Origin: Alphaproteobacteria bacterium
GTDB taxonomy: Bacteria; Pseudomonadota; Alphaproteobacteria; RF32; CAG-239
Reading direction: 5' to 3'
Assembly (NCBI GenBank): GCA_016283295.1
Contig: JAEEMQ010000009.1
Coordinates: 96,713-142,113 of the forward strand
Length of the DNA stretch: 45,401 nucleotides
The notes below the pieces were generated by a model. That model had not been told where the DNA came from. It saw only the letters and a list, made by a program, of their open reading frames with translations, and ran no database searches. The stretch's first letter is position 1; each line of letters opens with the position of its first letter. Made by a program: the position numbers and the translations under genes. Positions 29,533 to 45,187 of this stretch are shown here, in pieces.

Positions 29533-29751
29533 TCAATGTGAAGAAAGAAGCATACCGCAAATATAAAGCAGGGTAAACAGGCCCAAAGTAAGGGCGTTGG
29601 CGGCAATCACAACATTGTTGTTGCCGACCACGCTGACGCTGTGCGTGAGTGCCGCAGGTTGCCGGGAGTTTTGCGATATATCCGTGAGATTATCGTTAGC
29701 CGGACAGCTTTTTGCTAATATATCTCTGATTTGTTGATCTATATCCGTCAT
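29533..29751 (-). CDS. Small tail-anchored protein downstream of the repressor
   Basis: A 72-residue protein. It has a helical N-terminus (MTDIDQQIRDILAKS), a middle with VSVVGNNNVVIAANA, and a C-terminal hydrophobic helix (LTLGLFTLLYICGMLL) that probably anchors it in the membrane. The VVGNNNVVI string resembles the Asn-rich strand motif found in some phage-encoded regulator-associated proteins. It follows the XRE gene after 14 bp and so would be expressed in the lysogen, making superinfection exclusion or lysogenic conversion possible but unproven. Only a weak ribosome binding site (CGGA) is present. Confidence 0.6.
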   Translation of the reverse strand: MTDIDQQIRDILAKSCPANDNLTDISQNSRQPAALTHSVSVVGNNNVVIAANALTLGLFTLLYICGMLLSSH

Positions 29752-30239: not shown

Positions 30240-30268
30240 ATTATATAATATATATCTTAGAAAGTAAA
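30240..30268 (-). promoter_or_regulatory. Leftward promoter of the repressor
   Basis: On the minus strand: -35 TTTACT, 17 bp, perfect -10 TATAAT, about 30 bp upstream of the repressor ATG at 30209. Confidence 0.65.
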
Positions 30269-30283
30269 ACGATATTTTTCTTA

Positions 30284-30310
30284 TTGACGCGATTATAATT
30301 TTCTTATAAA
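30284..30310 (+). promoter_or_regulatory. Rightward promoter for the 166-aa regulator-like gene
   Basis: TTGACG followed after 15-16 bp by TATAAA/ATAAAA. The 13-bp element shared with the late promoter (30295-30307) overlaps its -10, so it is a likely target of the repressor. Confidence 0.5.
30295..30307 (-). repeat. Candidate operator, copy 1
   Basis: Minus-strand ATAAGAAAATTAT, followed by AATCG. The identical 13-mer occurs in the opposite orientation at 30852, also overlapping a -10 region. Role as repressor binding site is inference. Confidence 0.5.
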
Positions 30311-30332: not shown

Positions 30333-30833
30333 ATGGCGCATAACGGAATGTCGGCAGCAACGGCAAAAAGACGCGGGTATGTTTTGGATGAAAACGGAAT
30401 ATGGCGTAAAAAGACGGTTTTAGAGAAATATTTTGAAGAAGGCTACCTCGAATTGGAGGGGAGTCCGTTTTCGGCCGAACAGCGAAAGAAGGCAGGAGAA
30501 ATATTATCGAGGGACTATTACTTAGGAAATTATAATAAGCTGCAATCGAGCAAGCTCTTTAAGCTGGGTATAAGAACAACCGGAAACGTAGGAGAAGATA
30601 CAGCTATGTACTATAAAGAAAGATATTTGCACGCCGTTAAAAATATCCCGTATGAGTTTTGGCCGACGGTTTATAAAGTGTGTATCGAGGACACGAGAAT
30701 AGATCAATTTGAAGAAAAAAACGATAATTCCTTAAAAACAAAAAATAAATATTATTGTCTGAAAGTGTTTCTGTGCCTGGGTTTGGAAAGATTACTCAAA
30801 TATTATTTACAAAAAAATAAAAAAAGTTCTTGA
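30333..30833 (+). CDS. Phage regulator-like protein, possibly DUF6456-like
   Basis: A 166-residue basic protein with no signal or membrane segment. The N-terminus is MAHNGMSAATAKRRGYVLDENGIW. The C-terminal half, with GEDTAMYYKERYLHAVKNIPYEFWPTVYKVCIEDTRI and YYCLKVFLCLGLERLLKYYL, resembles the DUF6456 domain of alphaproteobacterial phage and host proteins (tentative, by eye). GGAGGATG precedes the ATG. It is the only gene between the repressor switch and the late promoter, and its end overlaps that promoter's -35. This is the place of Q in lambdoid phages, so late-gene activation or antitermination is a reasonable guess, not a demonstrated function. Confidence 0.7.
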   Translation: MAHNGMSAATAKRRGYVLDENGIWRKKTVLEKYFEEGYLELEGSPFSAEQRKKAGEILSRDYYLGNYNKLQSSKLFKLGIRTTGNVGEDTAMYYKERYLHAVKNIPYEFWPTVYKVCIEDTRIDQFEEKNDNSLKTKNKYYCLKVFLCLGLERLLKYYLQKNKKSS

Positions 30834-30858
30834 CATTTAGTGACTAATGTGATAAGAA
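30830..30858 (+). promoter_or_regulatory. Putative phage late promoter
   Basis: Consensus -35 TTGACA, 17 bp, -10 TAAGAA. The spacer contains the odd palindrome TTAGT-G-ACTAA (30837-30847), a second possible operator. The promoter lies about 50 bp before a strong terminator and drives towards the structural genes. Confidence 0.65.
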
Positions 30859-30878
30859 AATTATCATAATCGATAATT
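30851..30878 (+). repeat. Candidate operator, copy 2, with GATAA dyads
   Basis: GATAA-GAAAA-TTATC overlapping AATTATC-ATAATC-GATAATT: three alternating half-sites covering the late promoter -10 and start region. It contains the 13-mer ATAAGAAAATTAT shared with 30295-30307. Confidence 0.55.
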
Positions 30879-30905
30879 GTATTAAGAAGAAAATAAAAAA
30901 TCAGC

Positions 30906-30936
30906 GGAGATTGAGGCAGCTCAGTCTCCTTTTTTT
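30906..30936 (+). terminator. Strong leader terminator before the late operon
   Basis: GGAGATTGAG / CTCAGTCTCC, a 10-bp stem with one G-U pair and a GCAG tetraloop, followed directly by seven T. It lies between the late promoter and the first late gene, so transcripts from that promoter should end after about 70 nt unless antiterminated. Confidence 0.9.
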
Positions 30937-30947
30937 ATGGAGTGAAA

Positions 30948-31199
30948 ATGATGTATCGGGCAATTATGGATAGAGTTATTGTAAGATTATGCAATACTGA
31001 CGATAAATCGCCGATTATCCGTGAGGAAAGCCGCTATCGCAATCGGGGTGTGGTTTTAAGCGTGGGGCCGGAGGTTTCCGGAGTTAAGGTCGGCGACGAA
31101 ATTATTTTTCATTATTTTGATGATTTGCCGTTGGCGCAAAAAGATGTCGTGGCGGTTCGCGAAAAAAGCATTTTGGGAATCGTCGGCGAATCGGGTTAA
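30948..31199 (+). CDS. Phage-encoded GroES-like co-chaperonin
   Basis: A protein of about 83 residues (start ATG 30948 or 30951; GGAG at 30939 spaces better to the second). The match to Cpn10 runs through the whole length: N-terminal strand YRAIMDRVIVRL, a polar mobile-loop segment with a hydrophobic core (NTDDKSPIIREESRYRNRG), GVVLSVGPEVSGVKVGDEIIF, and the closing VVAVREKSILGIVGE. Compared with E. coli GroES (97 aa) the roof hairpin is reduced to PEVSG. T4 gp31 is also a phage GroES substitute. It would cap host GroEL for folding of phage proteins, probably the capsid or portal (inference). First gene of the late operon, 28 bp before the portal. Confidence 0.8.
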   Translation: MMYRAIMDRVIVRLCNTDDKSPIIREESRYRNRGVVLSVGPEVSGVKVGDEIIFHYFDDLPLAQKDVVAVREKSILGIVGESG

Positions 31200-31227: not shown

Positions 31228-32991
31228 ATGACGCAAGAAAATTTGTCTCGCAAGGAATTGCGAGATGCTTGGCAACGGAAAATTTCCGCCGCCGAAAAAA
31301 AATATGCCGATTATTATGATTTGATATCCGAGATTCGCGGATATTATCGTAATGAACGGCGCCGTAACAAACAAAATGTTTTTTGGGCAACGGTGGAAAC
31401 CATGAAGCCGTTTTTGTATTTTAAGCAACCGACGCCGTTTATTGTGCGCAGTCGTAAGGCGGTTGATGAAACTCAGCTGCTGGCCGCGACGATTTTGGAG
31501 CGGGCGCTTTATTGGAATATGAAGCAATTTGATTTTGACAGCGTGGTTAAATATGCCCGCAACGATTTTCTGCTTTCGGGAATGGGAGTGCTGTGGGAGC
31601 AATATTGTCCGAGTTTTTACACCATCGGCAACGAAATGCTCAAAAGCGGCGAGCAGGTCAATACGACCTATGTGAACCCCACCATGTTTTTGATGGATAC
31701 GCAAAATGTCAATGTGTGGGAAGACGTGGAGTGGATTGCCCGCAAAACCTATATGTCGATAGCGGATATTTATGAGAATTTTGATACGGCGATTGCCAAA
31801 TATCTTAATTCGCGTTTCGGCGATGTCGGCAATATCACCGTTTACGAAATTTGGGATAAGCCGAGCCGCTCGATTTATTATTACAGCCCGGAATATCCGA
31901 CGGACTTTTTGGAGGTTTATGAAGATACCCTGCATTTGAGCGGATTTTTCCCGTGTCCGAAACCGATTATGTCGACGCTTGCCAACGACGGTATGATTCC
32001 GGTGCCGGATTATGTGGAAATCAAGAGCCTGCTTGATGAATTGGACGGGGTTAACAACCGGATGCGGCTGACGATGCAGGCGCTAAAAGTTTCGGGCTGT
32101 TATGATAACAGTTTTCCGGAGCTGGCCAACATTTTGGATAAGGATGTAACGCTGATTTCGGTATCGGATTTCGATAAACTGAAAGAAGCCGGCGGTATTA
32201 AGGGAATTATCGATTTTGCGCCGATTGAACAATATGTGACGGCGCTCGAAACTTTGGCGCGTCGCCGTCAGGTTTTGATTGATTCGATTTATGAAGTGAC
32301 CGGTGTCAGCGATATTATGCGCGGCTCGTCGCAAATCGGCGAAACGGCAACGGCGGTTACGCAAAAGACCAACTTCGGTACACTCCGTAATCAGGACCGG
32401 CAGAACGATATGCAGCGTTTTTTGAAAGACCTGCTGCGGATTAAGGCGGAGATTATCTGCGAACAGTTTTCGCCGACGTTTTTGTTATCGTTCTTAAACC
32501 CGGATGAGCGCGCCGATATGGTTAAGGCTACCAACGCGGTCAAACTGTTGAAGGCGGAAAAACTGCGCGGGTTGATAATCGATTTGGAGACCGACGGTTG
32601 TTTTAATGTGGAACGCGAAGAAGAACGCACGCTCAGGGTTTTGAAAAACGTGCACGAACTCATCAGTCAGGCTTTCGGAATTGTTTCGCAACAGCCGGCG
32701 TTGTTGCCGCTGTATCGGCAGATGCTGGAGAGCGCAATGTCTACCATGCCGAAAGCGCGGCAGTTTGATACGGTTATAGATGCGGCGTTTAATAAAATCA
32801 GCGCCGAACTTAATAAGCCGGATGATAAGCCGCAACCGAATAACAATAACGCATTTTTGGAAGTGCAGAAGCAGAAAAACGCGCAGGATTACGCTATTAA
32901 AAAAGAACAAAACGAACTCAAGCGCGAAGAACTTAATTTGAAAAAGCTGGAGGCCTTGAAAGAGACCGCGGCGGAAGCAGATAAACGGTAA
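31228..32991 (+). CDS. Phage portal (head-tail connector) protein
   Basis: The ATG at 31228 has an excellent AAGGAGA site; the track start at 31117 is inside the GroES gene. The 587-residue protein resembles portal proteins of podovirus-like phages. Indicators are the N-terminal AWQRKISAAEKKYADYYDLISEIRGYYRN with KPFLYFKQPTPFIVRSR, a middle NDFLLSGMGVLWEQY, and especially YEVTGVSDIMRGSSQIGETATAVTQKTNFGTLRNQDRQNDMQRFLKDLLRIKAEIICEQF. The C-terminus is a charged coiled coil (QKNAQDYAIKKEQNELKREELNLKKLEALKE). Twelve copies form the DNA gate at the capsid vertex. It is unusual that the portal lies about 5 kb upstream of TerL and 8 kb from the scaffold. Confidence 0.88.
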   Translation: MTQENLSRKELRDAWQRKISAAEKKYADYYDLISEIRGYYRNERRRNKQNVFWATVETMKPFLYFKQPTPFIVRSRKAVDETQLLAATILERALYWNMKQFDFDSVVKYARNDFLLSGMGVLWEQYCPSFYTIGNEMLKSGEQVNTTYVNPTMFLMDTQNVNVWEDVEWIARKTYMSIADIYENFDTAIAKYLNSRFGDVGNITVYEIWDKPSRSIYYYSPEYPTDFLEVYEDTLHLSGFFPCPKPIMSTLANDGMIPVPDYVEIKSLLDELDGVNNRMRLTMQALKVSGCYDNSFPELANILDKDVTLISVSDFDKLKEAGGIKGIIDFAPIEQYVTALETLARRRQVLIDSIYEVTGVSDIMRGSSQIGETATAVTQKTNFGTLRNQDRQNDMQRFLKDLLRIKAEIICEQFSPTFLLSFLNPDERADMVKATNAVKLLKAEKLRGLIIDLETDGCFNVEREEERTLRVLKNVHELISQAFGIVSQQPALLPLYRQMLESAMSTMPKARQFDTVIDAAFNKISAELNKPDDKPQPNNNNAFLEVQKQKNAQDYAIKKEQNELKREELNLKKLEALKETAAEADKR

Positions 32992-36315: not shown

Positions 36316-36543
36316 ATGGATTGGTTGCAATTTTTACAAATAATCTGTGTGCCGGCCTTTGGCTGGCTTTTTTATAAGCTGGGCGAAACTCGCAAGGAGC
36401 TGAACGATTTTAAGGTGGAAATGGCCAAAGAAGCCAAAAATTATGCCACCAACGAGGCGATTTTGCGGGTGGAAAATAAACTCGACGATTTGCGCAGTTT
36501 GATTATCGAAGAAATCAAAAAAACAACCAAAAGGAGGGTGTAA
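36316..36543 (+). CDS. Holin-like small membrane protein
   Basis: A 75-residue protein with one N-terminal membrane helix (WLQFLQIICVPAFGWLFYKLG) and a charged coiled coil (ELNDFKVEMAKEAKNYATNEAILRVENKLDDLRSLIIEEIKK). GGGAGG precedes the ATG. The stop overlaps the start of the endolysin gene (TAATG). Size, topology and position point to a holin or a holin-associated protein; the long coiled coil is also found in hemolysin XhlA-like phage proteins, a good alternative. Confidence 0.65.
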   Translation: MDWLQFLQIICVPAFGWLFYKLGETRKELNDFKVEMAKEAKNYATNEAILRVENKLDDLRSLIIEEIKKTTKRRV

Positions 36544-36965
36544 TGTCTGATTTGGATATTTTGGCGCGAACGATTTACGGCGAGGCGCGCGGTGAGGGAC
36601 GCGAAGGTATGGAGGCGGTGGCGTGCGTTGTGATGAACCGCTATCGCTCACATAAGTGGTACTGCGGATATACCTGGATGAACGGGATGAAGGTGCCGAG
36701 TGTGGCACAGACCTGTCTTAAGCATTATCAATTCAGCTGTTGGAACAAAAATGACCCCAACCTGGATAAACTGTTGAAGGTAACGGCCAGAAATAAGCAA
36801 TTCCGGGAGTGTCTGCTGGTGGCGCAAAAGGCGCTTTCGGGAGAGCTGCAGGATTTTACCGGCGGTGCAACGCATTATCATACCAAGGATATAAAACCGT
36901 ATTGGGCCAAGGATAAAACTCCGTGCTTTGCGCTCGGTAATCATATTTTTTATAAGGAGAACTGA
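36543..36965 (+). CDS. SleB-like cell wall hydrolase (endolysin)
   Basis: A 140-residue peptidoglycan hydrolase of the SleB/Hydrolase_2 type. The catalytic Glu lies in LARTIYGEARGEGREGMEAVACVVMNR, and the rest of the domain is present (TCLKHYQFSCWNKNDPN, GGATHYHTKDIKPYWAKDKTPCFALGNHIFYK). There is no signal peptide, so it needs a holin to reach the periplasm. It acts as a lytic transglycosylase-like enzyme in relatives. It sits between two small membrane proteins and just before the spanin pair, completing the lysis cassette. Confidence 0.88.
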   Translation: MSDLDILARTIYGEARGEGREGMEAVACVVMNRYRSHKWYCGYTWMNGMKVPSVAQTCLKHYQFSCWNKNDPNLDKLLKVTARNKQFRECLLVAQKALSGELQDFTGGATHYHTKDIKPYWAKDKTPCFALGNHIFYKEN

Positions 36966-37485: not shown

Positions 37486-37761
37486 ATGGCAAAAAAGAAA
37501 ACGGCGGCGTATTCGTTTGCCGAAAGCTTTACAATGTTGAACAAACTGCAGCAGATGGCGATTGACGAAGGCAATATCAGTTTGGCGCTCAAGGCCGAGG
37601 AACTGAAATGCAAAATCGCCGCGCTGCAGGCAGATAAGGAAAGTAATTTATCAAACGAAAACTTAACCGGTATTTTGGTGGATTTTATCAATGAAGAACA
37701 AAGTAATAGTAAAGATTCCGCAGATATTTGCGCCGCTGATACGGCAAAAGAAAAGGTATAA
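37486..37761 (+). CDS. Terminase small subunit-like protein
   Basis: A 91-residue helical protein with GAGGAGG upstream. Residues 10-50 form a likely helical hairpin (ESFTMLNKLQQMAIDEGNISLALKAEELKCKIAALQAD), and the C-terminus is polar. It immediately precedes and overlaps TerL by 71 bp, the normal site for TerS, which recognises the packaging site and forms a ring. It is shorter than most TerS proteins and has no visible helix-turn-helix, so the call rests mainly on position. Confidence 0.65.
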   Translation: MAKKKTAAYSFAESFTMLNKLQQMAIDEGNISLALKAEELKCKIAALQADKESNLSNENLTGILVDFINEEQSNSKDSADICAADTAKEKV

Positions 37762-39016
37762 ACTTTATTACGGCGGCAGAGCCGGCGGCAAGAGTTATGC
37801 CTTTGCCGACAGCTTGTTGCTTTTGGGACGGATGAAAAAGTTGCGGATAGCGTGTATGCGCGAGATTCAAGACAGTATTAAGGACTCGGTGCATAAGCTG
37901 TTGAGCGATCGTATTTGCTTTTATAACCTTACCGATTATAAGGTTACGGAAACGCAGATTGTCAACAAAATCACGGGTACGAGCTTTATCTTCAAGGGCT
38001 TGCAGGAGCACAATGCCGGCAATATCAAATCGCTGGAGGGAGTGGATATCGTATGGCTGGAAGAAGCACAGAAAATCAGCAAAAAAAGCTGGGAGATTCT
38101 GGACCCGACCATTCGTAAAGCCGGCTCGGAAATTTGGATTTCGATGAATCGCGAAGAAGAAAACGACCCGGTGTGGAAGGCGGTGGCGGCTAATCCGGAT
38201 GAGCGTACGCTGGTGGTTAAAGTCAACTATACCGATAACCCCTTTTGCCCGGAAGAAATGAAATATCTGGCGGAGAAATGCCGGTGCGAGAGCCCCGATG
38301 ACTATGCGCATATCTGGCTCGGGGCGCCGGTTGCCGCGGGCAGTCACAAGCTTATCGGCTATAACGCGGTGCACAAAGCAACGCAGACGCAGCTGATGAA
38401 CTCGTCCTCGCCGCTGATTATCGGAATAGACGTGGCACGTTTCGGCGATGATAAAACTGTTTTTTGTTTCAGAAAAGGGCGGTTGTGCACGGAGTTTAAA
38501 AGCTTTGCCGGTCTGGATAATGTGGCGGTGGCCAATCAGGCAACGCACTATATCCGCGACTATAAGCCAGCGCGGGTGTTTGTGGATGCCGGCGGCGTCG
38601 GCGGCGGAGTGATTGATATTTTGCATGACCGCGGTTTTAAGAAAATCGTGCGGGCGGTGATGTTCGGCTCCAAAGCCTTGAATGATGAGCGCTATCATAA
38701 TCGGCGCGCGGAAATGTGGGACGAGCTGCGGCAGTGGCTCGCCTCTGAGCCGGCGGTTAAGATTCCGGATAACGAGAATTTGTGTGCGGAATTGTGTGCC
38801 GTCAACAAAAAATACGACAGCCGCGGTCGTTTGCAACTCGAGGAAAAAGACGAGATAAAAAAGCGGCTGGGGCGTTCGCCGGATATGGCGGATGCGTTGG
38901 CGCTGACGTTTGCCGAGCCGGTTTACGATAACGGTACCGAAGAATATGCCGGTTTCAAGGAAAACAGCATTGAGAGCCTGTTTCGGGCCAATGTAAAGAA
39001 AAACAATTCGTGGTAA
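37691..39016 (+). CDS. Terminase large subunit
   Basis: A 441-residue DNA-packaging motor of the PBSX/phage_terminase_3 type. The N-terminal ATPase has Walker A GGRAGGKS at 28-35 and Walker B VDIVWLEEA. The C-terminal RNase H-like nuclease has its first acidic residue at Asp247 (IIGIDVARFGDD), a second in VFVDAGGVGGG, and the last in SPDMADALALTF. All motor and nuclease residues look intact, so packaging should be functional. No ribosome binding site is seen before the ATG within TerS, which implies coupled translation. Its type resembles headful-packaging phages (inference). Confidence 0.93.
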   Translation: MKNKVIVKIPQIFAPLIRQKKRYKLYYGGRAGGKSYAFADSLLLLGRMKKLRIACMREIQDSIKDSVHKLLSDRICFYNLTDYKVTETQIVNKITGTSFIFKGLQEHNAGNIKSLEGVDIVWLEEAQKISKKSWEILDPTIRKAGSEIWISMNREEENDPVWKAVAANPDERTLVVKVNYTDNPFCPEEMKYLAEKCRCESPDDYAHIWLGAPVAAGSHKLIGYNAVHKATQTQLMNSSSPLIIGIDVARFGDDKTVFCFRKGRLCTEFKSFAGLDNVAVANQATHYIRDYKPARVFVDAGGVGGGVIDILHDRGFKKIVRAVMFGSKALNDERYHNRRAEMWDELRQWLASEPAVKIPDNENLCAELCAVNKKYDSRGRLQLEEKDEIKKRLGRSPDMADALALTFAEPVYDNGTEEYAGFKENSIESLFRANVKKNNSW

Positions 39017-40168: not shown

Positions 40169-41155
40169 ATGACTTTACAATACAATGATATGCTGACTCA
40201 TACGCTTGAGGAACGCACCGGTACGCTGCATGATAATATGTCAAAAAACAGCGCGGTACTCAATCGTTTGAAACAAAAAGGAAAAATGAAGCAGATTTCC
40301 GGCGGTACCAAGATTTTGGAAGAGCTGGAATACGGCGAAGGCGATATGATTTGGTATTCGGGCTACGATACCATTGCCTATCAGCAAAAGCAGTTGTTTA
40401 CGGCGGCGGAATATGCGCTGAAACTCTGCGCGGTGCCGGTTGCGATTTCTGGCGAGGAACTCTTGATGAACAGCGGCTCCGAGCAGGTTATGGACTTGTT
40501 TGAAAAGCGCGTTGACAATGCCGAAAAAACGCTGATTAAGAAAATGTCGGCGGCGGTTTACGGCGACGGTACCGGTTCTTCCGGCAAAGAAATCGGCGGC
40601 TTGGCGCTTTTGGTGGCCGATGACCCGACTACCGGAACCGTCGGTGCCATCAACCGTGCCGAAGTCGGTAACGAATTTTGGCGCAACCAGGTGGCAAGTG
40701 CCGAAATTACCAAGGACAACATTTTGCAAAAAATGAACGAGCTGTATTTGAAATGCTCGCGCGGCAGCGATAAGCCGGATTTGATCGTCGGGGATGATTC
40801 GCTGTATACGCTCTATGATTTGACCTTGATGGATTTGCAACGCTTCTCCAACCCGAATGTGGCCGAGGGCGGCTTCATCAGCCTCAAATTTAAGGGCGCC
40901 GACGTGATTTATGACGGCGGACAGGGCGGTAATTGTCCGACAAACCACATGTATTTTCTGAACACCGATTACATCTATCTGCGCACACATCGTGACCGTG
41001 ATATGACGGTTATCGGCGGCGACAGAACGGCCGTCAATCAGGATGCGCTCTATCGTATTATCGGCTGGGCCGGCAATATGACCATGAGCAACGCGGCATT
41101 GCAAGGCGTTTTGATTAATACGGCAACTTCCGGCAGTGATTCTGCAAGCAGCTAG
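40169..41155 (+). CDS. Major capsid protein
   Basis: A 328-residue protein with AAAGGA upstream. The N-terminal arm is helical (MTLQYNDMLTHTLEERTGTLHDNMSKNSAVLNRLKQKGK), followed by an E-loop-like segment (ISGGTKILEELEYGEGDMIWYSGYD). The helical spine comes next (LFEKRVDNAEKTLIKKMSAAVYGDGTG) and the A-domain-like C-terminal part (ILQKMNELYLKCSRGSDKPDLIVGDDSLYTLYDLTLMDLQRFSNPN). This is the HK97-fold layout. Placement between the scaffold and a stable hairpin fits the most abundant virion protein. It is the likeliest client of the phage GroES. Confidence 0.88.
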   Translation: MTLQYNDMLTHTLEERTGTLHDNMSKNSAVLNRLKQKGKMKQISGGTKILEELEYGEGDMIWYSGYDTIAYQQKQLFTAAEYALKLCAVPVAISGEELLMNSGSEQVMDLFEKRVDNAEKTLIKKMSAAVYGDGTGSSGKEIGGLALLVADDPTTGTVGAINRAEVGNEFWRNQVASAEITKDNILQKMNELYLKCSRGSDKPDLIVGDDSLYTLYDLTLMDLQRFSNPNVAEGGFISLKFKGADVIYDGGQGGNCPTNHMYFLNTDYIYLRTHRDRDMTVIGGDRTAVNQDALYRIIGWAGNMTMSNAALQGVLINTATSGSDSASS

Positions 41156-41234: not shown

Positions 41235-41837
41235 ATGGATATGGATTTTGCAATATTCCGTCAGGCGGCGGATAACGTAAACGACGAGCGCAACGTGCGG
41301 GCGCGTTTTTATGATAAAGCGGTCAAAACCGATAAAACCACGGCTAACGGGTTGCCGATTTTTAAGAACGTAACTTATGTGGAAATTCGCCTGAAAGACA
41401 ATAATACCGAAGTTTTTAATCAACCGGCAAGCGAAGAAAAAATCAAACGCTTTCCGCGGGAATACGGAATGTATCAGGCGGCGAAACAGCAGGCGGAGAA
41501 CGGTACGCCGCTTAACCAATTTGCGTTTTTGACCGCGGCGGAAATCGCCACTTGCGGCAATCGGGGAATTTTTACGGTGGAGGCATTGGCCGGGCTGTCG
41601 GCCGAAAAGGTGCGCGATTTGGGTTTGGAAAACGAACATCATCTGGCCGAGCTGTTTATGCAGGCGGCAAAATCGGTTGATGCGGTGGCGGTTTTTGCTC
41701 GCAAAGAGGAAGAATATCTGAACGAAATAGAAAAATTAAAATATGAAAATAACGAGTTAAAACAAATAATTAAAAAGAATAATAAAAGTAAAACATTAAA
41801 TAGAAGAAAAGGAGAAAAATATGAAAACAATTCTTGA
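41235..41837 (+). CDS. Phage protein of the head-tail region
   Basis: A 200-residue soluble protein. The N-terminal half has beta character (RARFYDKAV..., FKNVTYVEIRLKDNNTEVFNQPASEEKIKRFPREYGMYQ). The middle has a helix-hairpin-helix-like segment (FTVEALAGLSAEKVRDLGLENEHH), and a long coiled coil forms the C-terminus (EYLNEIEKLKYENNELKQIIKKNNKSK). The terminal 25 residues are very AT-rich in code and overlap the next gene by 17 bp. Similar proteins follow the capsid gene in related prophages, but I cannot assign a function. Confidence 0.7.
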   Translation: MDMDFAIFRQAADNVNDERNVRARFYDKAVKTDKTTANGLPIFKNVTYVEIRLKDNNTEVFNQPASEEKIKRFPREYGMYQAAKQQAENGTPLNQFAFLTAAEIATCGNRGIFTVEALAGLSAEKVRDLGLENEHHLAELFMQAAKSVDAVAVFARKEEEYLNEIEKLKYENNELKQIIKKNNKSKTLNRRKGEKYENNS

Positions 41838-42534
41838 AATTTGTCGCGAGGTCGCCGATTTGGCCGCGGTTAAACGGCCGAATGATTTGTTTAATGCTTC
41901 GAGCCAACAGGATAGTGTGTTTTTGAGCGTGGCAAAGTCTTCGCTGGACAGCATGTTGCGTTACGGCGATTGGCAGGAGCTTACCAAAGAGGCTTGGTTT
42001 TTTACGCAGGAAGGCAAAAAACAATATCCGATCAGCGAAATTGCGCCGGATTTTTTCAGTTTGCTCAATAATACGATTTTCGTTAAAGACACGCGAGAGC
42101 GGATTATCGGCGCCATTACGCCGGAACAATGGGCCCGCGAAAAGTGTTTTTGCTGTGCCGGTACCGAGATTAAGTTCAAAATTCAAAACGGGCGCTTTGT
42201 GTTTTTGCACGAGCCGCCGTGTCGGATGAAAATCGTGTTTCAATATCGTTCCGACAATATTGTGTGGGACTTCAACACTTTTGAGGAAAAGAACGTGTTG
42301 ACGGCGAATACCGATGTGCCGATTTTTGATGAATACCTGGTTAAGCTGGATATTTTGTGGCGCTGGCTCAAACGCAACGGGATGGATTATGCCGAAGAAT
42401 ATAACGAGTTCCAGCGTGAGTTGAAAAAGAAATTCGGGGCGGAGTTGGCAACAAAAGATATTTGTCTTGCCGGCCCGGCTTTTGCAGATGAAGGAGTGGC
42501 AGGCAATGCGGTTAAAGTCAGTTACAAGGAATAA
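41821..42534 (+). CDS. Head-tail adaptor-like protein
   Basis: A 237-residue protein with AAGGAG upstream. The N-terminal helical half (ILEICREVADLAAVKRPNDLFN...QQDSVFLSVAKSSLDSMLRYGDWQELTKEAWF) and the C-terminal helical region (YLVKLDILWRWLKRNGMDYAEEYNEFQRELKKKFG) surround a beta-rich middle. The arrangement and the position directly before the propeller protein match the gp4-type adaptor of P22-like tails, which plugs onto the portal. Assignment is by context and architecture, not by a confirmed match. Overlaps the next gene. Confidence 0.65.
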   Translation: MKTILEICREVADLAAVKRPNDLFNASSQQDSVFLSVAKSSLDSMLRYGDWQELTKEAWFFTQEGKKQYPISEIAPDFFSLLNNTIFVKDTRERIIGAITPEQWAREKCFCCAGTEIKFKIQNGRFVFLHEPPCRMKIVFQYRSDNIVWDFNTFEEKNVLTANTDVPIFDEYLVKLDILWRWLKRNGMDYAEEYNEFQRELKKKFGAELATKDICLAGPAFADEGVAGNAVKVSYKE

Positions 42535-44065
42535 TAAATCCGTATATATTACATTACCGTCGCCGATTAACGGATTGAATAAACGTGATAATTGTATGGA
42601 TATGGATGTGCGGTACGCCGCGGTTATGGATAATTATATTCCGCAAGATACCAAGGTGGTTTTGCGCGGCGGTTATGCCAAATATGCGGATTTTGAGGCG
42701 CCGGTCGAAACATTGGCCAGCTATGTCAGCGGTGCCGACAAGCGTTTTTTTGCCGTATCGGGCAAGAAAATTTGGAATATAACTTATGCCGACAACGTGC
42801 AGGCTGTTTTATCGTCGGGTATAAATAACAATCGATTTCATTGTGCTCAATATAAAAACTACCTGTTTTTTGTGAACGGCGTTGACACGCCCAAAGCCTT
42901 TTATATTGACGGCGAAGGTCACGATTGCATCGGCGATTGGGGCTTTTCCGGCAGCGGTCTGACCGCGAGCAATATTGTTAACGTCAGCGTTTCTAAACAG
43001 CGCCTGTGGTTTGTGGAAAAAGATTCGTTAAAAGTCTGGTATCCCGAAACCGCCGGCAATATTTCCGGAACGTTACATTCTTTTGATTTGGCGCAGGTTT
43101 GCCGCTACGGCGGTCGTTTGCTGGCGGTGGCGGATTGGACACAGGACGGCGGACAGGGAATAGACGATTTAACGGTGTTTATAACCTCGGAGGGAGAGGT
43201 TTTGGTATATTCCGGCTCCGATATAGAGAGTGCCGACGATTGGACGTTGCGCGGCTCGTATAAAATCAGTAAACCCATCGGATATGAGTGTTGTCTGCAA
43301 TATCAGGGCGATGTCGTGATTATTACCGAAGACGGCTATGTTCCGCTTTCAAAGGCTTTGCCGCTTAATCAATCAAATACGGCGCAGGTGGCGTTCAGTG
43401 ATTGCATTCGCGGATTGGTTATCGATCGTACGCAAAAATACGGCAGTCGCGAAGGGTGGCAGGGCATTATCTATAGCCGCGGCGGCTACGGTCTGTTCAA
43501 TGTTCCGGTCGCCAATTCGTTTGAACAACACGTTATCAACGTCAACACCGGAGCCTGGTGTCGTTTTACCGGCATTCGCTCGTATTGTTGGTGCAATTTT
43601 GAACGGCGGCTGTATTTCGGCTCGGATAACGCGGTTTATCTGTTTGATGAAGGCCACAGCGATAACGGGGCGCCGATTTGCGGGGTGGTGGAACAAGCAT
43701 ACAGCAATTTGGGGACCGAGCGTCTGAAAAAGGTGCAAATGCTTAATCCGCGCACCAAATCGTCGATACCGTACAGCCTGGCAATTTGGACCAATATGGA
43801 TATGGAGGAGCAAAATATTGATTATGCGGAAAATATCGGCTCGTCCGGCCTGCATAAGTGGAATGAAATGAAGTGGTCTTCCGTTGTCGATGCCAGCGGC
43901 GCCAAATGGTCAAATTCTGGCAGAACCGTTATTCGCAGCCAATGGATAGCCAATTCGGCCACCGGATATAAGGCCGGTATCGTGTTCAAAACCAAAACCC
44001 GCGGCAATCATATCGAATGGTACGAAACCGGGGTGTGCTACGAAACGGGCGAGGGCATATTATGA
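42506..44065 (+). CDS. Beta-propeller tail protein, P22 gp10-like
   Basis: ATG 42506 follows AAGGAG at 9 nt; the track start at 42467 lacks one. The 519-residue protein is nearly all beta with repeating strand units (VETLASYVSGADKRFFAVSGKKIWNITYADN, HCAQYKNYLFFVNGVDTPKAFYIDG, RLWFVEKDSLKVWYPE, DLTVFITSEGEVLVYSGSD, GDVVIITEDGYVPLS, RRLYFGSDNAVYLFDEG), the look of a multi-bladed propeller. P22 gp10, the DNA-stabilising tail hub, has this type and follows gp4, as here. The start of the GNAT gene overlaps its stop by ATGA. Confidence 0.72.
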   Translation: MRLKSVTRNNKSVYITLPSPINGLNKRDNCMDMDVRYAAVMDNYIPQDTKVVLRGGYAKYADFEAPVETLASYVSGADKRFFAVSGKKIWNITYADNVQAVLSSGINNNRFHCAQYKNYLFFVNGVDTPKAFYIDGEGHDCIGDWGFSGSGLTASNIVNVSVSKQRLWFVEKDSLKVWYPETAGNISGTLHSFDLAQVCRYGGRLLAVADWTQDGGQGIDDLTVFITSEGEVLVYSGSDIESADDWTLRGSYKISKPIGYECCLQYQGDVVIITEDGYVPLSKALPLNQSNTAQVAFSDCIRGLVIDRTQKYGSREGWQGIIYSRGGYGLFNVPVANSFEQHVINVNTGAWCRFTGIRSYCWCNFERRLYFGSDNAVYLFDEGHSDNGAPICGVVEQAYSNLGTERLKKVQMLNPRTKSSIPYSLAIWTNMDMEEQNIDYAENIGSSGLHKWNEMKWSSVVDASGAKWSNSGRTVIRSQWIANSATGYKAGIVFKTKTRGNHIEWYETGVCYETGEGIL

Positions 44066-44505
44066 GTTATCGCATCATACAAGACAAAGACGGTACGATA
44101 ACCCGCTGGGTGTGCCAAGGTTTGGGCTATAAAACCGATTGGCTCGGCGATTATCTGACCTTCGGCTTTGAATATGAGGGGCGGCTGGTTGGCGGGCTGA
44201 TTTTTCATGATTGGCGTTGCGGTCATGATATTTGGTGGACGGTTTATACGGTTGATCCGCATTGGTGCAACCGCAGTATGTTGCGGCAGATGTTTGCGTT
44301 GGCATTCAACACGTTACGTTGCCGGCGCATTAATTTGCTTGTCAGCAGACGCAATCGGCGCAGTTTGAATTTTGTGCGGCGCTTGGGTTTTAAACCCGAG
44401 GGCTTGCTGCGCGAATATCGCGAAAACGGCGATGATTGTTATTTTATGGGGATGCTTGCCAAAGAGTGTCCGTGGCTTAATAAGAAAGGGGAAAAAAATG
44501 AGTAA
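44062..44505 (+). CDS. Phage-encoded GNAT acetyltransferase-like protein
   Basis: The start at 44062 overlaps the propeller stop (ATGA). The 147-residue protein has the GNAT fold order: a central beta strand pair (FEYEGRLVGGLIFHDWRCGHDIWWTVYTVDPHW), the pantetheine-binding turn/helix (CNRSMLRQMFALAFNTLRCRRINLLV), and the late SRRNRRSLNFVRRLGFKPEGLLREYRENGDDCYFMGML, which is a classical GNAT C-terminal half. The usual Q/RxxGxG/A loop is not obvious. It lies between virion genes, so it may modify a structural or host protein; the substrate is unknown. Confidence 0.78.
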   Translation: MSYRIIQDKDGTITRWVCQGLGYKTDWLGDYLTFGFEYEGRLVGGLIFHDWRCGHDIWWTVYTVDPHWCNRSMLRQMFALAFNTLRCRRINLLVSRRNRRSLNFVRRLGFKPEGLLREYRENGDDCYFMGMLAKECPWLNKKGEKNE

Positions 44506-45187
44506 ATCAATCGGAAAAATATTCGGAACAAGTTCAACCGGAACTTACGGATATGAAAATAACTATATGAATTATATGAATAATTATAATACATCTAACT
44601 ACGACAATACTTTGAACAATATGACGGCGGCGGCATTGAATATGAGCCAAAATCTTAATGCCATGCCGGCATATCAGTTTAGCGTGGATGGGTCGGATGC
44701 GGCGCGGCAACAGGCGGAAAATGCGACTTTTCAATCGTATGTTGACCGGCTGACACCGCAATATCAGCAGCAGACAAACGATTTGCAAACCAGGTTAATC
44801 AACCAGGGAGTGCCGGTCGGCAGCGAGGCCTATCAGCGGGCGATGAACGACCTGCAAAGTGCTCAGAACGCGGCTCTCAATCAGGCGGCATATCAGAGTG
44901 TGTTGAACGGTCAGAACGCATATTCGCAATCGCTTAGCGACAGCATTAATGCGGCGCAGTTCGGCAACACGGCACAGCAAAATTATATTCAGCAAATACA
45001 ATCGCTATTGGACGGTTCGGTTTCGGGCTACGATAATATGGCAAATTTGTATAATATTCAGAAAGGAGTTGAGGCACGGCAGACCGCGGCCAAACAATCC
45101 GGCTGGAATAATTTGTTTAAAACTTGGGAACTTGCAAACAATTCTGCCAATACAGCTTTTCCTTATATGAAATTTTTCTTGAAATAA
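44498..45187 (+). CDS. Asn/Tyr/Gln-rich phage virion protein
   Basis: ATG 44498 follows AAAGGGG and overlaps the GNAT stop by 8 bp; the track start is inside GNAT. The 229-residue protein opens with a low-complexity Asn/Tyr/Met region (YGYENNYMNYMNNYNTSNYDNTLNNM). It continues as a Gln/Ala-rich helical stretch (QQQTNDLQTRLINQGVPVGSEAYQRAMNDLQSAQNAALNQAAYQSVLNGQ). There is no membrane segment. Proteins with such helices occur among ejection or tail-tip proteins of podoviruses; this is a contextual guess. Confidence 0.65.
   Translation: MSKSIGKIFGTSSTGTYGYENNYMNYMNNYNTSNYDNTLNNMTAAALNMSQNLNAMPAYQFSVDGSDAARQQAENATFQSYVDRLTPQYQQQTNDLQTRLINQGVPVGSEAYQRAMNDLQSAQNAALNQAAYQSVLNGQNAYSQSLSDSINAAQFGNTAQQNYIQQIQSLLDGSVSGYDNMANLYNIQKGVEARQTAAKQSGWNNLFKTWELANNSANTAFPYMKFFLK

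Follow-up and report, generated by a model that had tools for sequence, protein, structure and literature searches.

How is an operon of particle genes expressed when an intrinsic terminator stands between it and its promoter? This question is raised by the stretch of DNA analyzed here (the window, 45,401 nt of an alphaproteobacterial contig), in which a promoter and a terminator directly precede a set of structural genes. A first-pass annotation had read the arrangement as a lambda pR'-tR'-like late promoter of a phage, silent unless antitermination occurs. Based on sequence comparisons across related genomes, we consider it probable that the late promoter carries its own stop signal, that a protein of the DUF6456 family would release this stop, and that the protein would thereby turn on both the late operon and further operons bearing the same module (Table 1).

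Table 1 Features of the leader, its putative regulatory genes, and the late operon in the window
Feature	Positions	Strand	Remarks
Divergent HTH repressor-like gene, 147 aa	29766-30209	-	Weak HTH_3 and PHROG regulator matches; kept beside the DUF6456 gene genus-wide
Conserved block GTAAAACGATATTTTTCTTATTGAC	30264-30288		25 nt, upstream of the DUF6456 gene; 0-4 mismatches in 24/25 species
166-aa DUF6456 protein, candidate GafZ-like anti-terminator	30333-30833	+	Pfam, relatives, hhalign, AF2 model
-35 element TTGACA	30830-30835	+	Overlaps the DUF6456 stop codon; TTGAC invariant, last base A/T, 25 species
Palindrome TTAGTGACTAA	30837-30847		Perfect dyad between -35 and -10; candidate binding site for the DUF6456 protein
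Extended -10 TGA-TAAGAA	30850-30858	+	Hexamer TAAGAA at 30853-30858, 17-bp spacer
-10-like hexamer CATAAT	30865-30870	+	Lies at predicted +1 to +6; candidate sigma-dependent pause site
Leader intrinsic terminator	30906-30936	+	10-bp stem, dG -15.4, T7; 100 shuffles gave no equal
GroES-like first late gene	30948-31199	+	Cpn10 E = 1.1e-5; PHROG GroES E = 9.4e-10
Portal protein	31228-32991	+	phrog_12082, E = 7.4e-110
Endolysin	36543-36965	+	phrog_938
Large terminase	37691-39016	+	phrog_3717, E = 5.6e-55
Major capsid protein	40169-41155	+	phrog_9953, E = 4.8e-97
Tail protein and following late gene	41821-44065	+	phrog_6013, phrog_5107
Virion structural protein	44372-45187	+	phrog_6121; last gene before the contig end

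The promoter given in the first-pass annotation as TTGACA-17-TAAGAA is present at 30830-30858, and the terminator with its GCAG loop and seven T was likewise described correctly (GGAGATTGAG-GCAG-CTCAGTCTCC at 30906-30929, T7 at 30930-30936). Two features absent from that annotation's list are the palindrome in the promoter spacer and the second -10-like hexamer, which begins exactly 12 bp past the first. Between the T-run and the first late ATG at 30948 there are only about a dozen bases, with GGAG at 30939-30942. Scanning of the region from 26.0 to 45.4 kb returned 35 promoter-like patterns (29.9 ± 4.9 in shuffled sequences) and 38 terminator-like patterns (29.0 ± 4.7); since these counts are modestly above those of shuffles in AT-rich DNA, one site alone is little proof. 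The generic promoter scan missed the late promoter itself because TAAGAA alone agrees with TATAAT at only three of six positions, and the credibility of this predicted promoter comes from its conservation. An alternative -10 element, GATAAG with a 15-bp spacer, was dropped, as conservation favors TAAGAA at 17 bp with a TGn extension.

We regard the comparison across species as decisive for the reality of the predicted promoter-terminator layout. The genus set comprised 26 genomes, with 25 species having sequence that covers the leader. The homologous -35 element reads TTGACA or TTGACT in 25/25 species, and all 25 leaders have a -10-like element at 17-18 bp from it. Palindromic pairing in the spacer follows a common pattern, RGTnACY, with 52 of 63 possible pairs formed at a common center (column-permutation p = 0.0018 for the genus); single-species p-values are modest (0.0135 for the window), and the dyad is nearly lacking in a few members of the genus. 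The second -10-like hexamer 12 bp past the first and the leader terminator are also kept across the 25 species. Of 45 leaders, 32 have a strict terminator, i.e., one with a contiguous stem, where dinucleotide shuffling predicts 1.0; the 5' stem 7-mers take 25 different forms, so that the hairpin itself is what is kept. When scored with a sigma-70 -10 matrix, the best -10-like position falls at offset 12 in the window's genus (g1) and in two others (g12 and g6), and at offset 13 in g11. This hexamer, at the predicted +1 to +6, may act as a pause site. The consensus elemental-pause motif (G-10 Y-1 G+1) fits g12, not the window's genus, and was not relied on.

Judged from the genome sequences, the finding is larger than the first-pass annotation had described, with the module repeated at unlinked loci. 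A 59-bp sequence-only model (R1), built from the main sites of 22 species, matched about 56 sites in the 26 genus genomes, namely the main site in 25/25 genomes carrying the DUF6456 gene and about 30 unlinked sites. The genus genome without a detected DUF6456 gene has one R1 site, and 26 control genomes gave one marginal match (E = 0.009). Because R1 was trained on main sites, only the unlinked sites count as independent evidence. Among 21 unlinked sites that were read, the palindrome core is present in 19 and a -10-like element in 20, and a strict terminator was found in 13 (1.1 expected); some of the remaining sites have hairpins with long loops or mismatches. One unlinked site lies in the window's own genome (contig C48, position 830), where an identical palindrome with its own terminator adjoins a host outer-membrane efflux gene. 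In another genome (G015), the particle genes are split over three loci, with the module at each: repressor-DUF6456-GroES-portal (C1, L099), a small ORF and terminase beside genes reading as clpP and clpX (C14, L299), and a scaffold-like gene with capsid and tail genes (C7, L298).

Homologues of the DUF6456 gene were detected in 68 of 152 genomes of the family, representing 6 of its 16 genera, and the same layout stands upstream of late genes in four genera beyond that of the window (g6, g11, g12, and g14). The palindromes differ between genera, with RGTnACY in g1, CCGTCGGG in g12, and CGGTGACACCG in g6; those outside the window's genus further include ACCCGTCGGGT, CACAGGGGTCACCCCTGTG, and AGTTTTGCAAAACT. 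They are clear in g1, g12, g6, and g14 and weak in g11, and the non-g1 palindromes share the same center position in the spacer. The automatic palindrome search in these genera returned many chance matches in AT-rich DNA, and sites lacking any part of the layout were discarded; a few g12, g11, g14, and g3 genomes yielded no full module recognizable with the patterns used. The late operon in other genera mostly begins with terminase, and the GroES-like gene, first in the late operon of the window, is found between terminase and portal in most of them. Distances between the module and the DUF6456 gene range there from roughly 30 to 1,400 bp. The spacing of terminator and promoter is nevertheless retained, with the 5' arm beginning just past +1 in g12, g11, and g6, so that the terminator goes with the promoter rather than with the DUF6456 gene.

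The best candidate for a releasing factor is the neighboring 166-aa gene, which ends at the promoter, as the first-pass annotation had pointed out, with its stop falling inside the -35 element. The Pfam DUF6456 model matches the window's protein at E = 5.6e-4 (20.4 bits, below the 26.3-bit cut-off) and 16 of 26 family members at E <= 0.01 (best 9.7e-8), with a match above cut-off in one genus. Alignment against a class-wide alphaproteobacterial DUF6456 set with hhalign gave P = 1.1e-8 over residues 44-159. By these profile comparisons, the protein is a divergent DUF6456 member. The gene was found in 25 of the 26 genus genomes, the window's included, always as a single copy, and the genome in which it is missing is 72% complete. 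Neither Pfam nor PHROGs returned a Q-family match for the protein or its homologues, consistent with the earlier remark that it does not look like known Q proteins. A PDB sequence search with the protein was empty, and a PDB fold search gave nothing significant (top match sigma-28, E = 1.7, probability 0.33). The structure prediction that had been suggested as a check (AF2, pLDDT 80.5) resembles viral proteins, one of them annotated as DUF6456. Querying viral contigs directly with the 166-aa protein returned no match, and an alignment-based search returned three, two of which (L031 and L033) look like elements of the type studied here. Homologues of GafA are reported to contain the DUF6456 domain (PMC9638019, PMC9765227), and GafZ of Caulobacter corresponds to the C-terminal part of GafA and was shown to be an anti-terminator (PMC11150451). 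GafZ travels with RNA polymerase and NusA/G/E and requires a palindrome between -35 and -10, and it enables the polymerase to pass terGTA and rrnB T1 (PMC11150451). The 166-aa protein is thus likely a relative of GafZ, a link that runs through the DUF6456 domain and these papers and not through the GafZ sequence.

The intergenic region upstream of the DUF6456 gene carries a different conserved sequence, the GTAAAACGATATTTTTCTTATTGAC block, which is lacking in only one of the 25 species, where the contig is cut, and which is probably a repressor operator/promoter. RGTnACY is lacking from this region in 24/24 loci. A 72-aa ORF whose C-terminal part includes a hydrophobic stretch lies between priA and the repressor gene (29533-29751 in the window) and is conserved in many species.

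These elements suggest the following sequence of events. Sigma-70 RNA polymerase would initiate near 30865 from the good extended promoter, and sigma would hold it for a short time at the -10-like hexamer. While the regulator is absent, transcription would end at the leader terminator, yielding a predicted leader RNA of ~72 nt and leaving the particle genes silent. Relief of repression by the divergent HTH protein would allow synthesis of the DUF6456 protein, which would bind the palindrome between -35 and -10 and load onto the paused polymerase. The polymerase would then be terminator-resistant and transcribe all operons preceded by the module, the late operon among them. The pR'-tR'-like layout and the antitermination mechanism put forward in the first-pass annotation are well supported by the promoter, the spacer palindrome, the -10-like element, and the leader terminator.

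Other explanations divide these elements differently. The spacer palindrome could serve as an operator at which the divergent HTH repressor shuts the late promoters directly, with the terminator as no more than a second lock against leakage. Although repressors classically bind in the gap between -35 and -10 and a conserved HTH gene lies next door, we consider this unlikely, as RGTnACY is lacking from the repressor's own intergenic region, where the different conserved block is found instead, and the g6 and g11 loci tested have the module with no detectable repressor homologue upstream of DUF6456. We give similarly little weight to the DUF6456 protein being an activator that recruits RNA polymerase through a sigma-4-like HTH, with read-through coming from other factors or being constitutive and partial. 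GafA binds near -10/-35 and contacts the omega subunit (PMC9638019), and GafZ raises expression even when there is no terminator (PMC11150451), so that activation could contribute here as well; yet these promoters have a near-consensus -35 and an extended -10 and therefore should not need an activator, and terminators are retained at most sites although their sequence changes.

The overlap of the DUF6456 stop codon with the -35 element implies that the DUF6456 mRNA would also end at the leader terminator, which might then serve merely to end this transcript, with the late genes using an internal promoter or leak-through. We consider this very improbable. The late ATG follows the T-run at a distance of only about a dozen bases, and the strong promoter downstream of 30936 that the first-pass annotation had named as evidence against antitermination was not seen: the generic scan, which also misses the promoter at 30830, found no promoter-like site on the plus strand between 30937 and 31320. 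In other genera and at the unlinked loci, moreover, the terminator tracks the promoter and not DUF6456. Antitermination by the DUF6456 protein thus remains our preferred reading of the leader.

The word "phage" in the first-pass annotation is probably wrong for the element that this leader serves. The element is single-copy, sits at one place in most species, and evolves like its housekeeping neighbors, and searches of its genes in the window recognized no integrase or replication gene. The order mutS-mazG-priA-repressor-DUF6456-late genes occupies one chromosomal place in about 16 species, and the block is relocated in others, e.g., adjoining rpsI in G017. Host genes flank the element, with mutS-mazG-priA on the left and, in G025, ThiF, OmpH, and PPDK close to the final gene of the element; the window stops where the contig does, and the right edge of its own copy lies outside the sequence. 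Pairwise dN/dS is 0.03-0.15 for portal, terminase, and capsid (0.03-0.14 for portal), near the values for priA and mutS, and dS of the particle genes is similar to that of priA/mutS in the same pairs. Trees of portal plus DUF6456 and of priA plus mutS show the same main clades (priA-portal Mantel r = 0.84). A degenerate prophage was rejected given the low dN/dS and intact synteny. Related viral contigs of ~32-34 kb (L039, L040, L042, and L047) have portals 50-54% and capsids about 60-70% identical and are possibly free relatives of a domesticated element; DUF6456 was not found in these contigs, which may be fragments. Taken together, these comparisons indicate that the element is podovirus-like and vertically inherited under purifying selection, and most likely a domesticated GTA-like particle, i.e., a GTA candidate, rather than a live phage. 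The names of close relatives denote rumen and gut Alphaproteobacteria MAGs, some labeled Rhodospirillaceae, and rumen Alphaproteobacteria appear to have kept and inherited a phage-derived particle for a long time.

The unlinked operons (L240:830-2012, the site in the window's genome, and L278-L297) code for proteins of modular build, in which a common N-terminal tag is joined to a C-terminus that varies. The tags read DEFGVDHSNFSLRDELEY, ETVRQTLERVMRE, or FNGxTPIxRQ..EYYxINPG, and the C-terminal domains include GH108 muramidase, YkuD/Tlde1-like, and SAA domains; genes for small membrane proteins often come after them. On the basis of these modular proteins, we tentatively suggest, as a possibility less likely than not, that a one-anti-terminator regulon runs a domesticated podovirus-like GTA-like particle that delivers interchangeable cargo, either effectors or ejection lysins. 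Elsewhere in the window's genome (L301:3349-7999, contig C20), tandem paralogues with repeated GAPQKVGGDF-like units lie behind an accessory cargo-like gene.

If the proposed mechanism is true, antitermination by GafZ/DUF6456 proteins is no oddity of Caulobacter, and a lambda-like late switch operates in several genera of uncultured gut Alphaproteobacteria; the finding also points toward a candidate podovirus-type gene transfer agent in this class. Natural variation in both site and protein would make the recognition rule directly testable. With a separate antitermination leader for each operon, the particle genes could spread to distant chromosomal sites, and this would help explain the co-regulation of dispersed GTA operons.

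Among known systems, late promoters of lambdoid phages, with lambda PR'-tR'-Q as the type, have in common with the present leader a strong promoter, a spacer site, a leader terminator, and a late operon, and the geometry of the -10-like element equals that of the sigma-dependent pause element of lambda PR', which is at +1 to +6 (PMC4604602). Unlike in lambda, the protein is unrelated to Q families by sequence, the site is palindromic, the leader is about 72 nt or shorter, and the module occurs several times in a genome. AlpA of Pseudomonas aeruginosa similarly combines a binding element between -10 and -35 with an intrinsic terminator shortly downstream at more than one target promoter, but belongs to another protein family and controls lysis genes and no structural operon (PMC7969949). 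FpGTA of Faecalibacterium is also a podovirus-like GTA candidate of a gut bacterium encoded in more than one operon; its host is Gram-positive and its particles have been shown, whereas the element described here is known from genomes alone (PMC12946183). The closest precedent is GafZ of Caulobacter crescentus and its GTA cluster, which share with the present system a DUF6456/GafA-C family protein, a palindrome between -35 and -10, a terminator ahead of most cluster genes, a regulator gene under repressor control (predicted for the present element), and the setting of a domesticated phage-like element in Alphaproteobacteria (PMC11150451). The earlier suggestion of a new antitermination system is therefore partly right: the kind of antiterminator is not new, as GafZ of the DUF6456 family was already known. 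In Caulobacter, the -35 element is degenerate and needs GafY and IHF, and the terminator comes after gene 1, while here the -35 is near consensus and the terminator is in the leader (PMC11150451). The present system further differs from that of GafZ in the -10-like element at +1 to +6, in the podovirus-like character of its particle genes, and in the many loci that carry the module, where GafZ has one target (PMC11150451).
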